A stretch of DNA of 56,198 nucleotides, taken from NCBI RefSeq assembly GCF_006538705.1, contig NZ_BJLP01000024.1, positions 1-56,198 on the forward strand. Direction: 5' to 3'. The DNA is from Cellulomonas uda. Lineage in GTDB: Bacteria > Actinomycetota > Actinomycetes > Actinomycetales > Cellulomonadaceae. The notes beneath the pieces were generated by a model. The model saw nothing but the letters and a program-made list of their open reading frames with translations. It was not told where the DNA came from and did no database searches. Shown here in pieces: positions 3,978 through 40,283 of this stretch; position 1 is the first letter of the stretch, and each line of letters opens with the position of its first letter. Both the position numbers and the translations under genes were made by a program.

Positions 3978-4020
3978 CCGGACGCCGCCGCACCCGAGCG
4001 CACCTGGCCCCCCGGACCAC

Positions 4021-4419
4021 AAGAGCGGGTCCATCCCGACGAGACCGGGGTTGCTCCGGGTCCCAGCCGCCGAAGCCGGAACAAGCACGGCCTCGGCAGG
4101 CGCGTCCCCGACGAGACCGGGGTTCCTCCGGGTATCCACGCTCGAACCCGGAGCAACCACGGGGTCGACGACGGTGGGGTCGACGACGGTGGGGTCGACG
4201 ACGGTGGGGTGGGTGACCTCAGTGGCGGCGACCGTGGGGTCGGGGTGGGGTCGGGATCAGAAGAGCGGGTCCATCCCGACGAGACCGGGGTTGCTCCGGG
4301 TCCCGGCCGCCGAAGCCGGAACAAGCACGGGCTCGGCAGGTGCCTCCCCGACGAGACCGGGGTTGCTCCGGGTATCCGCGCTCGAAGCCGGAGCAACCAC
4401 GGGGTCGACGACGGTGGGG
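4021..4419. repeat. 240-bp tandem duplication at the 3' end of the RNase H gene
   Basis: Bases 4021-4179 and 4261-4419 match at about 150 of 159 positions with exactly 240-bp spacing. The second copy encodes the last 53 residues of the RNase H protein. The first lies beyond its stop codon and is not translated as part of it. Each copy contains two sub-repeats built on GACGAGACCGGGGTT, each able to pair with a nearby CCGGAGCAACC-type arm. Bases 4160-4209 add three 15-bp units (GGGGTCGACGACGGT). Confidence 0.9.
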
Positions 4420-4949
4420 GCGGTGGCCTCGGAGTCGACGGCGGGGGCGGTGGCTCCGGAGTCGACGGTGGGGGTGGGGGGCGCGGACGTGGGGGGTGGG
4501 GGGAGGGTGCCGGCGCGGGCGGCGCGGGCGGCGATGCCCGCGAGCTCGTCGGCGCGCTCGTTGAAGCGGTCGCCGCGGTGGCCGCGCACCCACGAGAACG
4601 TGACGGGACCGGTGCGCTCGCGGATCGCCTGGTCGATCGCCTGGACCAGCGCGAGGTTCTGGACCGGGCCGCCGCTCGCGGTGCGCCAGCCGCGCCGGCG
4701 CCAGCCGTGCACCCACTCCGACGAGCACTTGATCGCGTACTGCGAGTCCGCCTCGATGCGCAGCGGCTCGGGGCCGGGGTGCGCGAGGACCGCCTCGAGC
4801 ACGGCCGTGAGCTCGGCGACCTGGTTGGTGCCGGAGGGTGCGCCGCCGCTCGCGCTCGTGCCGTCGTGGTTGGCCCACGCCCAGCCGATCGCGCCGCCGG
4901 GGTTGCGCAGGCAGGAGCCGTCGGTGCTCACGGTGATCATCGGCGCCAT
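4257..4949 (-). CDS. rnhA: Ribonuclease HI with repeat-derived C-terminal tail
   Basis: 230 residues from ATG 4949; the core fold ends near residue 145. The catalytic carboxylates are visible: D10 in STDGSC, E46 in QVAELTAV, D68 in IEADSQYAI and D134 in RADELAG, with the conserved H124 in VRGHRG. RNase HI cuts the RNA strand of RNA-DNA hybrids during replication and repair. The last 85 residues are a Pro/Ala/Thr-rich tail ending in two TRSNPGLVG repeats from the duplicated palindromic DNA; typical RNase HI proteins lack this tail. No good ribosome-binding site is visible before ATG 4949, and ATG 4940 is an alternative. Confidence 0.9.
   Translation of the reverse strand: MAPMITVSTDGSCLRNPGGAIGWAWANHDGTSASGGAPSGTNQVAELTAVLEAVLAHPGPEPLRIEADSQYAIKCSSEWVHGWRRRGWRTASGGPVQNLALVQAIDQAIRERTGPVTFSWVRGHRGDRFNERADELAGIAARAARAGTLPPPPTSAPPTPTVDSGATAPAVDSEATAPTVVDPVVAPASSADTRSNPGLVGEAPAEPVLVPASAAGTRSNPGLVGMDPLF
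4361..4398. repeat. Perfect 11-bp inverted repeat inside the RNase H 3' end
   Basis: GGTTGCTCCGG (4361-4371) and CCGGAGCAACC (4388-4398) flank a 16-base loop. The equivalent in the other copy (4121-4131 with 4148-4158) has one mismatch. The unit resembles a small palindromic (REP-like) element that has become coding sequence. Confidence 0.8.
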
Positions 4950-27837: not shown

Positions 27838-27932
27838 ACCGCACCACCCCCGCCCGAGCGGCGCCCCACCCCCGGATGTGGACGGCCCGGCCCGTCGACG
27901 CGACGAGCGCGTGCGCGTCGCTCTCGTGCGGC

Positions 27933-29069
27933 TCAGGCCTGGGGGCGCAGCGCGATCGCCATGGCCTCGACGGCCAGGAGCGGGGCGACGTTGCCCTCGA
28001 GCCGCGTGCGGGCCGTCCCGATCGCGTCCATGCGGCGCAGCGTCTGCTCGGGCGTGGCGGCCGCGGCGAGCTCGCGCACGGTCTCGGCGTGGTCGAGGTT
28101 GACCAGCGACACGTCGGCGCCGAGCTGCACGACGAGCACGTCCCGGTAGAGCGACAGCAGGTCGAGCATCGCCCGGTCGAGGACGTCGCGCTGCGCGCGC
28201 GTGGCCCGGCGCTTCTGGTCCTCCTCGAGCTGGCGGACCTGACCGCGCACGGCGGGCGGGAGCGTCGCCGCGCCCTCGGCGCCGAGCGTGCGCAGCAGCG
28301 CGGCACGCTCGGCGGCGTCGCGCTCCTCGGTCGCGGCCTTCGCGTCGGCCTGCGCGGTCGCGACCAGGTCTCCCGCGGCCAGGACCGCGTCCCCGACGCC
28401 CCGGATACGCGCGGCGATCTGCAGCACCTCGGTGCGCCGCCGCCGGGCCTCGGGGTCGCGCGCGAGCCGGCGCGCGATGCCCACGTGGCTCTGCGCCGCG
28501 CGCGCGGCGACCTCGGCCACCTGCGGGTCGATGCCGTCGCGGCGGACCAGCAGGTCCACCACGGCCGCCACGGGCGGCACGCGCAGCGCGACGGCCCGCG
28601 ACCGCGAGCGCAGCGTGACGAGCACGTCCTGCGGGCTGGGGGCGCACAGCATCCAGACGGTGCGCGGCGCGGGCTCCTCGAGCGCCTTGAGCAGGACGTT
28701 CGACGTCTTCTCGACCAGCCGGTCGGCGTCCTCGACGAGGATCACCCGCCAGCGTCCCTCGGCGGGCGACCGCTGCGCGAGCTCGACGAGCGGGCGCACG
28801 GCGTCGATGAGGATGTTGACGCCCTCGGTCGCGACGACCTTCACGTCGGGGTGCGTGCCCGCCAGGACGGTGGTGCACGCGTGGCACCGCCCGCACCCGC
28901 CCTCGGTGCACTGCAGCGCGGCGGCGAACGCGCGGGCCAGGTTGGAGCGGCCCGAGCCGGGCGGGCCGGTGAACAGCCAGGCGTGCGTCATGGCCTGCGG
29001 GTCGACGACGGCGCGCTGCAGCTCCGTGATCGCGGGCTCCTGCCCGACGAGACCCTCCCAGACGCTCAC
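27933..29069 (-). CDS. holB: DNA polymerase III delta' subunit
   Basis: 378 residues from GTG 29069, which overlaps the tmk stop (GTGA). P-loop-like GPPGSGRSN near 35, with Arg in the usual Lys position. A zinc module follows (C-x4-C-x2-C-x2-C: CTEGGCGRCHAC). The LVEDADRL (Walker B-like) and ALEEPAPRTVW motifs are also typical of clamp-loader delta'. It helps load the sliding clamp. Translational coupling to tmk is the usual arrangement. Confidence 0.94.
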   Translation of the reverse strand: MSVWEGLVGQEPAITELQRAVVDPQAMTHAWLFTGPPGSGRSNLARAFAAALQCTEGGCGRCHACTTVLAGTHPDVKVVATEGVNILIDAVRPLVELAQRSPAEGRWRVILVEDADRLVEKTSNVLLKALEEPAPRTVWMLCAPSPQDVLVTLRSRSRAVALRVPPVAAVVDLLVRRDGIDPQVAEVAARAAQSHVGIARRLARDPEARRRRTEVLQIAARIRGVGDAVLAAGDLVATAQADAKAATEERDAAERAALLRTLGAEGAATLPPAVRGQVRQLEEDQKRRATRAQRDVLDRAMLDLLSLYRDVLVVQLGADVSLVNLDHAETVRELAAAATPEQTLRRMDAIGTARTRLEGNVAPLLAVEAMAIALRPQA

Positions 29070-39125: not shown

Positions 39126-39773
39126 ATGGACGACGAGGCGGCGGCCCCGACGCCGGGTGCCAGGCGCCTGCGGCGCGCGGCGACCGAGGCGCGGCGTGCG
39201 CAGATCGTCCGCGCGGCCGCCCGGACGTTCGGCACCAAGGGGTACCGCACCGGCTCGCTCGCGGACGTCGCCGAGCAGGTCGGCATCACGCACGCCGGCG
39301 TGCTGCACCACTTCGGCACCAAGGAGCAGCTGCTCGTCGAGGTGCTGCAGATGCGCGACGAGCAGGGTGTCGCCGACCTCGAGGGGCAGCACATCCCCGG
39401 CGGGATCGAGCTGTTCCACCACCTGGTGCGCACCGCGCGCGCCAACGCCGAGCGCCGCGGCATCGTGCAGGGCTACACCGTGCTGACCGGCGAGTCCGTG
39501 ACCGAGGACCACCCCGCGCGCGCCTGGGTGACCGAGCGGTTCACCACGCTGCGCGGCGACGTCGCGGCCGCGGTGCGCGAGGTCGGCGGGCCGGACGTGT
39601 CCGACGACGACGCGCGGCGCGCCGCGAGCACGGTCATCGCGCTGATGGACGGCCTGCAGGTGCAATGGCTGCTCGACGAGGACGCGGTCGACCTCGCGGA
39701 GGCCACGCGCGTCGGCATCGAGGCGGTCCTGCGGGCTGCCTGCCCGTCGGCGGACATCCCCCACCTGGGCTGA
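39126..39773 (+). CDS. TetR-family transcriptional regulator
   Basis: 215 residues from ATG 39126. The N-terminal HTH (RAAARTFGTKGYRTGSLADV ... GVLHHFGTKEQLL, about 30-75) is classic TetR. The C-terminal ligand domain (about 85-215) ends in an Asp/Glu-rich helix. The ligand is unknown; the divergent PAP2 gene is a possible target. A five-unit 19-bp array lies just after its stop. Confidence 0.92.
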   Translation: MDDEAAAPTPGARRLRRAATEARRAQIVRAAARTFGTKGYRTGSLADVAEQVGITHAGVLHHFGTKEQLLVEVLQMRDEQGVADLEGQHIPGGIELFHHLVRTARANAERRGIVQGYTVLTGESVTEDHPARAWVTERFTTLRGDVAAAVREVGGPDVSDDDARRAASTVIALMDGLQVQWLLDEDAVDLAEATRVGIEAVLRAACPSADIPHLG

Positions 39774-39788
39774 CGACGGCCGACCCGC

Positions 39789-39883
39789 GCCGCGAGGTCG
39801 AGCATCGCTCGCCGGGTCGTGCATCCCTCGTCAGGTCGTGCGTTCTTCCGCACGACTCACCGAGGAACGCACGACCTCGCGGG
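39789..39883. repeat. Head-to-head array of five 19-bp units
   Basis: Three contiguous 19-mers on the minus strand (39789-39807, 39808-39826, 39827-39845) meet two on the plus strand (39846-39864, 39865-39883) with no spacer. The common core is (A)YGCACGACCY followed by CGAG or CGGG. Examples: GAACGCACGACCTGACGAG and GAACGCACGACCTCGCGGG. The outer unit pair can form a 13-bp perfect stem (39833-39845 with 39865-39877). The array is non-coding, between tetR and the orphan winged-helix gene. Confidence 0.88.
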
Positions 39884-39959
39884 ACGGAGGAGGCCCGTTC
39901 TCAGGGATCTCACAGGGAGGGCTCAGGCGTGGTCCAGGGCCGGTGGGCACCGTGGGCGC

Positions 39960-40283
39960 ATGACAGCGACCACGACGGACCAGCGCACCCTCGTCGTCGG
40001 CGACCTCGAGCTCGACGAGGTCAGCGGCGAGGTCACGCGCGCCGGCGACCCCATCCACCTCACGCCCACCGAGCGCGCCCTGCTCACCTACTTCATGCGC
40101 AACCCGCGCCGCGTGCTGTCCAAGCGGATGATCCTGGACCGCGTGTGGCGCGACGACCGCGGCGGTGCCGACGGGGTCGTCGAGCTGTACGTCAGCTACC
40201 TGCGGCGCAAGATCGACCGCGGGCGCGCGCCGATGCTGCACACGCAGCGCGGCATCGGCTACGTGCTGCGCCCGCCCCTGTGA
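39960..40283 (+). CDS. Orphan OmpR/PhoB-type winged-helix DNA-binding protein
   Basis: 107 residues from ATG 39960. The whole protein is a Trans_reg_C domain (LTPTERALLTYFMRNPRRVLS, the VWRDDRG loop, LYVSYLRRKID, RGIGYVLRP). No receiver domain exists in frame upstream, so it cannot be controlled by phosphorylation in the usual way. It follows the 19-bp array by 76 bases and may bind it (inference). Upstream GTG/ATG choices would only add low-quality residues. Confidence 0.85.
   Translation: MTATTTDQRTLVVGDLELDEVSGEVTRAGDPIHLTPTERALLTYFMRNPRRVLSKRMILDRVWRDDRGGADGVVELYVSYLRRKIDRGRAPMLHTQRGIGYVLRPPL

Follow-up and report, generated by a model that had tools for sequence, protein, structure and literature searches.

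The array of head-to-head 19-bp units at 39789..39883 of the window (the whole 56,198-nucleotide stretch of Cellulomonas uda DNA analysed here) belongs to a dispersed palindromic repeat family whose unit is spelled differently from species to species and whose copies lie mostly just past stop codons, where a hairpin predicted on either strand likely ends or shields transcripts. We put the probability of this reading at about two in three. The repeat occurs in multiple copies, has a 19-bp mirror architecture, sits at gene ends, differs in presence and absence between relatives, and has no strand preference. In the model that we consider the most likely, non-autonomous mobile DNA would carry a hairpin that acts at transcript ends alike on both strands.

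Architecture of the array

The array consists of five units with 19-bp spacing, three on the + strand and two on the - strand, whose head-to-head junction is at 39845/39846 with zero spacer, as the preliminary description had seen in the sequence. In this register, unit L0 begins at 39834 on the + strand and unit R0 ends at 39857 on the - strand. The parts are as follows.

39790..39800, + strand: outermost 11-bp inverted arm, pairing with 39872-39882, within inverted repeat I1
39796..39814, + strand: degenerate outer unit L2 (GGTCGAGC), unit score 10.9, within the shuffle range and identified by the 19-bp register
39815..39833, + strand: 19-bp unit L1 (GGTCGTGC core), second-best unit match in the window (20.5)
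39815..39876, no strand: 62-nt core made of unit L1, the central palindrome and unit R1; 69.9 bits on the + strand and 66.2 bits on the - strand with covariance model R1, 74.0 bits with the matrix of G033 copies
39834..39857, no strand: central 24-nt near-palindrome of two units head to head, centred at 39845/39846, from the sequence and the alignment of 14 copies
39858..39876, - strand: 19-bp unit R1, mirrored, best unit match in the window (27.1)
39872..39882, - strand: outermost 11-bp inverted arm, partner of 39790-39800, within inverted repeat I1

The outer pair had been described as a perfect 13-bp stem. This needs correction: the exact pair at the outermost position spans 11 bp, and the exact 13-bp pair (39833-39845 with 39865-39877) joins the third and fifth units.

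The five-unit array is real and beyond chance. When single units were scored with a 19-bp matrix, L1 and R1 exceeded the maximum of 30 shuffles (18.5), and L2 and L0 (13.1) fell within the shuffle range. As covariance model R1 was trained on this array too, its two scores are not independent; the independent test was a 62-nt matrix built from 22 copies of the closest relative, G033, and zero copies of C. uda. This matrix gave its 74.0 bits at position 39815, compared to -43.6 for the next non-overlapping place in the window and -2.4 for the best of 100 dinucleotide shuffles. The predicted RNA fold had an energy of -75.8 kcal/mol on one strand (z -5.6) and of -81.6 kcal/mol on the other (z -6.0), and none of 200 shuffles was as good on either strand. 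A search of Rfam returned four matches, all below the gathering cut-off (the best at 25 bits where 70 are required), and these three miRNA hairpins and one guanidine-III match were chance-like. The array is not a CRISPR, as had been noted: there are no unique spacers between direct repeats, and the units abut, are mirrored and have only three variable bases each.

A repeat family in C. uda and its closest relative

The genome-wide search for further arrays that the preliminary description had proposed did find them. Covariance model R1, built from 14 of the 15 C. uda places, identified 15 places in the C. uda genome including this array, followed by noise at E of at least 0.3, and 23 places in G033. 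Simple patterns gave the same picture, with 23 matches for a 14-nt unit pattern vs 3 for the reversed pattern, and 16 for a 23-nt centre pattern vs 0 for its reverse, both in the C. uda genome. The 14 C. uda copies aligned on their centre shared a common register with no gaps, and every copy had a central 24-nt palindrome between mirrored 19-bp units. Unit positions 4, 5, and 16 were invariant or nearly so (71, 72, and 72 of 72 units, respectively), and the spacer positions varied.

No phage record was found for the repeat. A single 43-bp match to a Paracoccus plasmid (E 6e-3) was taken as chance, two viral contigs that matched the central pattern were missing the flanking units, and three Bradyrhizobium loci with the central pattern had one common conserved surrounding and matched the cross-species model described below over the centre only, at 21-23 bits, so these loci were left out of the family.

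Unit spelling changes between species and the layout is largely retained

The spelling of the unit differs by species, being GGTCGCGGGTTCCTCGTCG in G002, GATCGTGGGTTCGTCGCGA in G022, and GGTCGGGGGTTTGGCGTGT in G138. Most of the printed elements are still mirrored around a 24-nt centre with a period of 19 bp, a few have a period of 20, and the weakest cross-species matches fit the layout poorly. The cross-species covariance model, R2, was built from 42 sequences out of 62 listed elements, C. uda copies included, so its matches are not independent; moreover, a palindrome is usually scored twice, once per strand, in its match counts. With a match limit of 1e-4, R2 matched 36 of 81 same-genus genomes, C. 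uda included. At the level of the family, matches were found in 47 of 150 genomes and 12 of 25 genera. In both counts, genomes with a single weak match close to that limit could be chance matches. In a sample of the order, 21 of 297 genomes matched, nine of them outside the family (17 matches in G241 and 1-4 in each of the other eight), and here too chance could account for the weakest single matches. Other genera of the family have the head-to-head symmetry and the 19-bp spacing as well.

The elements lie mostly at gene ends

To describe the genomic context, genes were called with a script based on codon usage, for which five genes of the window served as the training set. Among 62 elements from nine genomes, 37 were in co-directional gaps, 21 in convergent gaps and 3 in divergent gaps, and 1 was at a contig end; in a second set of 25 elements, the numbers were 12, 10, and 1, respectively, with 2 undecided. 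The C. uda copies were 9 co-directional, 3 convergent and 2 divergent, with 1 remaining. Only 4 of the 87 elements (3/62 and 1/25) were inside a script-called ORF.

Of the 87 elements, 75 lay in called gaps that were 100 bp or longer; these were counted, gap-sharing elements separately, and compared with the remaining gaps of that length in the same loci as the control. Tandem, convergent and divergent gaps held 46, 25, and 4 of these elements and made up 87, 10, and 62 of the control gaps, respectively, so divergent gaps were depleted (Fisher p ~1e-8) and convergent gaps enriched (2e-7). In tandem gaps, 38 of 46 elements were closer to the upstream stop; measured from its centre, an element was at a median of 71 nt from that stop and 154 nt from the following start. 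When the strand of the loop was compared to that of the gene in C. uda and G033, the counts were 10 to 12 with 2 undecided, indicating no strand preference.

An intrinsic terminator of local origin would account for a GC-rich hairpin 16 nt past the stop of the upstream TetR-family gene. Such a terminator needs neither a sequence common to 14 other copies nor a 19-bp period, and the dispersed family already contradicts it. Further, no T tract (at least 6 T in 12 nt) was present at any of 174 element ends, which upholds the preliminary view that the array is not a simple terminator. We give a local origin of this kind hardly any credence.

The proposed model starts from these positions. On either strand, the transcript past a stop codon would fold into a long imperfect hairpin, which could terminate transcription without a T tract, a mechanism discussed for Streptomyces stem-loops that have no U tract (PMC8269248), or could stabilise or protect the 3ʹ end. 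Copies would persist at gene ends since a strand-symmetric hairpin there may be harmless or useful.

The array is probably separate from the control of its neighbouring genes

The array sits between two regulator genes, and its outer arm begins 16 nt past the stop of the first.

39126..39773, + strand: TetR-family gene, upstream of the array (gene call; PF00440, E 9.5e-13)
39900..39937, + strand: four YHCAG 5-mers at an exact 11-bp spacing (39900, 39911, 39922, 39933), in all 7 same-genus sequences aligned
39960..40283, + strand: winged-helix (Trans_reg_C) gene, downstream of the array (gene call; PF00486, E 8.7e-23)

Because of this position, and because the units are conserved and iterated with spacer bases freer than most of the unit, the array could be an operator bound by the adjacent TetR or winged-helix protein, and one helix-turn-helix regulator is also among the 20 proteins scanned next to other copies. 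The distribution of the family speaks against it. There are 14 further copies in the C. uda genome, and the 20 neighbour proteins scanned at 13 of these 14 were unrelated metabolic, repair or regulatory proteins or had no Pfam match (peptidase, prenyltransferase, LPMO, RecR, DnaX, malic enzyme, and others); no transposase family was found among them. The elements mostly follow stops and avoid divergent promoters. Both the TetR and the winged-helix genes matched in 29 of 30 loci checked, C. uda included, and in all six relatives read, which retain the two genes, the array was missing at the orthologous site, with nothing found by R2 in the gap. In G021 and G026, just 5 and 9 nt lie between the matching blocks where C. 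uda has the array.

The winged-helix gene, furthermore, has conserved 11-bp direct repeats of its own. Operators of the OmpR/PhoB type consist of direct repeats at about 11-bp spacing in the regulated promoter. The array is inverted with 19-bp spacing and does not match this type; the 11-bp block stands apart from it. Judged from its sequence, the block at 39900-39937 is likely the real regulatory block of the winged-helix gene, separate from the array, and likely an autoregulatory site. An operator function of the array is therefore very improbable. Among the three functions that had been offered for the array, the mobile repeat and the structured RNA fit the evidence, and the operator array does not.

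Pairing and covariation of the arms

Across the 42 sequences of R2, both sides were changed in 20 of 29 pairs. The cross-species covariation score was 0.375 vs 0.203 for shuffled alignments, with none of 500 shuffles as high, and stricter counts were reached by 6 and 15 of 500 shuffles. Within the C. uda genome alone, the number of robust covariation pairs was not beyond that of shuffles (265/500). Compensatory changes in an inverted doublet able to form one hairpin were thus seen across species, and within C. uda alone the count was not beyond that of shuffles. For 87 elements, the median hairpin arm was 37 nt with mismatches allowed (range 0-67).

The arms were also compared through the free 3-nt spacers, omitting the G033 copy that is identical to a C. 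uda copy (L125) and a weak C. uda copy (L153:3600). In 36 C. uda and G033 copies, the spacers mirror-matched across the palindrome at 1.97 of 3 positions vs 1.20 expected, a value reached by none of 5000 shuffles. For the C. uda copies alone, the match was 1.57 vs 1.18 (p 0.07), which was not significant, and there was no excess arm match in G002 alone or G022 alone. The two halves of the central palindrome matched slightly less than shuffles (8.19 vs 8.69 of 12). As tandem units also had matching spacers (1.56 vs 1.03), the arm matching may stem from unit-to-unit copying and not from selection for pairing.

Gain, loss and probable spread of copies

The absence of the array at its site in all six relatives means that it was either gained or lost. 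Several elements of C. uda and G033 are orthologously placed (e.g., those on C. uda contigs C42, C64, C51, and C19), and others differ: the C. uda copies at C9:42147 and C86:1606 are missing in G033, and the G033 copies in loci L126 and L132 are missing in C. uda, the site of the former corresponding approximately to 27850-27942 of the window. G138 carried 11 copies with differing flanks and the loop in both orientations, and their pairwise identity was 92-100% (mean 97%) once they were oriented alike. Near-identical copies in different flanks point to recent spread. We infer that copies would spread as non-autonomous mobile DNA moved by a putative enzyme.

Smaller-scale changes were also observed. 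At locus L123 of G033, an element plus its flank is duplicated in tandem (L123:4831 and L123:4968, 137 bp apart), so local duplication also raises the copy number, and in G138 an exact tandem duplicate of an outer 19-bp unit (L206:1937) indicates that the units themselves amplify. One C. uda copy (L159, C42:25200) is identical to a G033 copy (L125, C1:832854) over the printed stretch, with flanks 98.9% alike on the right and 91.7% on the left; the other C. uda-G033 flanks compared were mostly 82-92% alike. The identity of these two sequences may reflect recent transfer or unusually strong conservation.

No mobilising enzyme was found. PF01797 (Y1_Tnp) matched in none of 16 genomes, C. uda included and G138 outside the set, and in 5 of 14 control genomes with the same search; a RAYT was accordingly rejected as the mover for the genomes in that set. 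The repeat could instead be a MITE, derived by deletion from a DNA transposon that has terminal inverted repeats and mobilised by the transposase of that parent. It is a short inverted-repeat element with presence and absence between relatives, and the 11 near-identical copies in G138 would suit such an origin. No target-site duplication was seen, where the flanking intergenic DNA has diverged and the element ends are not sharp, and no full-length parent was seen within the loci read. Tandem 19-bp units in variable number are atypical of MITEs. We regard a MITE as quite improbable.

A second palindromic repeat family, of the CGACCCCGnnnTTGCTCCGG...CCGGAGCAAnnnCGGGGTCG type, was noticed as doublets 72 bp apart in G033. 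It is present in the C. uda window at 4014-4447, within two 194-nt copies that are 90% alike. The G033 counterpart of the gap that holds the array in C. uda contains two copies of this second family, 72 bp apart, and further doublets of the family are present at two other loci of G033 (L085, L121, and L124 being the loci concerned). The swap of one palindrome for another in this gap, a single case, would fit gene-end hairpins that are interchangeable.

Listed copies are concentrated towards the origin

With dnaA as the marker of the origin, we located the 23 places of G033 and the best-scoring listed places of seven other genomes. Among the matches listed for these eight chromosomes from five genera, 69 of 84 places were in the origin-proximal half, and the quintiles from origin to terminus held 34, 29, 10, 10, and 1 of them. 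The bias was kept without G033, as 48 of 61 places among the matches listed were origin-proximal. A terminator role leaves this bias unexplained.

The gradient from 34 to 1 place would suit a binding array for a DNA-binding protein, for example one that organises the nucleoid or chromosome, with a specificity that follows the unit spelling of each species. The near-invariance of unit positions 4, 5, and 16 next to variable spacer positions is in line with this idea, as is the recurrence of the symmetry and the 19-bp spacing in other genera of the family. The patchy occurrence in 36 of 81 same-genus genomes and the turnover of sites argue against an essential chromosomal role, placement tracks gene ends, and no candidate protein was found. 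We consider a binding array unlikely, and the transcript-end hairpin carried as mobile DNA remains our preferred reading.

Relation to known repeats

REPINs are described in the passages of PMC3116915 that define them as REP doublets, in which two conserved inverted words around a spacer are predicted to form a long hairpin; they are extragenic, show compensatory changes, occur in tandem clusters too, and are associated with RAYT tyrosine transposases. The repeat described here resembles them in its inverted doublet hairpin, its extragenic position and its compensatory changes. It differs in the absence of PF01797 from the 16 genomes tested (C. uda included, G138 outside the set) and in having a word every 19 bp, with at least 4 copies per element, in 15 elements in C. 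uda and 23 in G033.

According to the parts of PMC3733652 that deal with them, GTAG and CGTC REPs lie after genes, between convergent and co-directional ORFs, and form species-specific families; the CGTC REPs are likewise without a known transposase, and most REP families are reported to be spread throughout the genome. Our repeat is like REP/BIME sequences in its multiple extragenic palindromic copies, its position after genes and rarely between divergent genes, and its species-specific spelling, and it is unlike most REP families in that its places favour the origin half among the matches listed. The GTAG tag was found in 0 of 174 units within the last seven positions, the place before the central palindrome, and CGTC was no constant tag either: 26 of the 174 units had it at positions 15-18, and it was common only in G002 (16/18, vs 2/30 in C. 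uda). The CGTC of G002 (L133-L139) is located before the central palindrome, inside the paired arm; judged by sequence, it may be a coincidence or a link to the CGTC REP superfamily. In summary, the element behaves like a REPIN yet lacks both a constant tag and a Y1_Tnp/RAYT, and it is therefore not classed as a REPIN.

According to the relevant sections of PMC3733652, descriptions of the tagged REP families and of RAYT, the mover proposed for them, come mainly from proteobacteria, and neither 'Actinobacteria' nor 'Cellulomonas' occurs in the main text of that paper. It mentions untagged REP-like families for M. tuberculosis, Deinococcus, and others, which enter this comparison by mention and not by sequence. 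The RepRanger REP catalogue tabulates REP counts for three Actinomycetota genomes (PMC12306157), so REP-like sequences in Actinomycetota are already on record; the passage concerned gives counts only, with no mirrored 19-bp layout there. For Streptomyces, an account in PMC8269248 reports 3ʹ ends that overlap between the two strands, as well as stem-loops without a U tract. The likeness lies in bidirectional transcript ends and U-tract-less stem-loops in a GC-rich actinomycete. The Streptomyces ends were defined by RNA and are not described in that account as one repeat family, whereas the C. uda elements are known from sequence alone. Among the matches listed from the open-access literature, there was no published report of the present repeat family, most subscription papers being outside the scope of the search.

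Tentatively, the family could represent a separate class of mobile DNA defined by its layout, with no Y1/RAYT, a gene-end position, origin-proximal retention, and a word-reading protein that would co-evolve with the spelling. Its layout would be a species-specific word of ~11 bp that recurs every 19 bp, in mirror order on the two sides of a 24-nt palindrome, and its range would extend across one family and, at least sporadically, into other families of the order. We regard such a class as possible but doubtful.

A repeat that is REPIN-like, with no RAYT found, and that combines a fixed 19-bp layout with respelling between species and an origin bias makes a clean comparative case. It bears on two questions: what mobilises 'ownerless' palindromic repeats, and whether hairpins at gene ends are selected as terminators or are tolerated there. 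Identifying the protein that reads the unit would answer the first of these.
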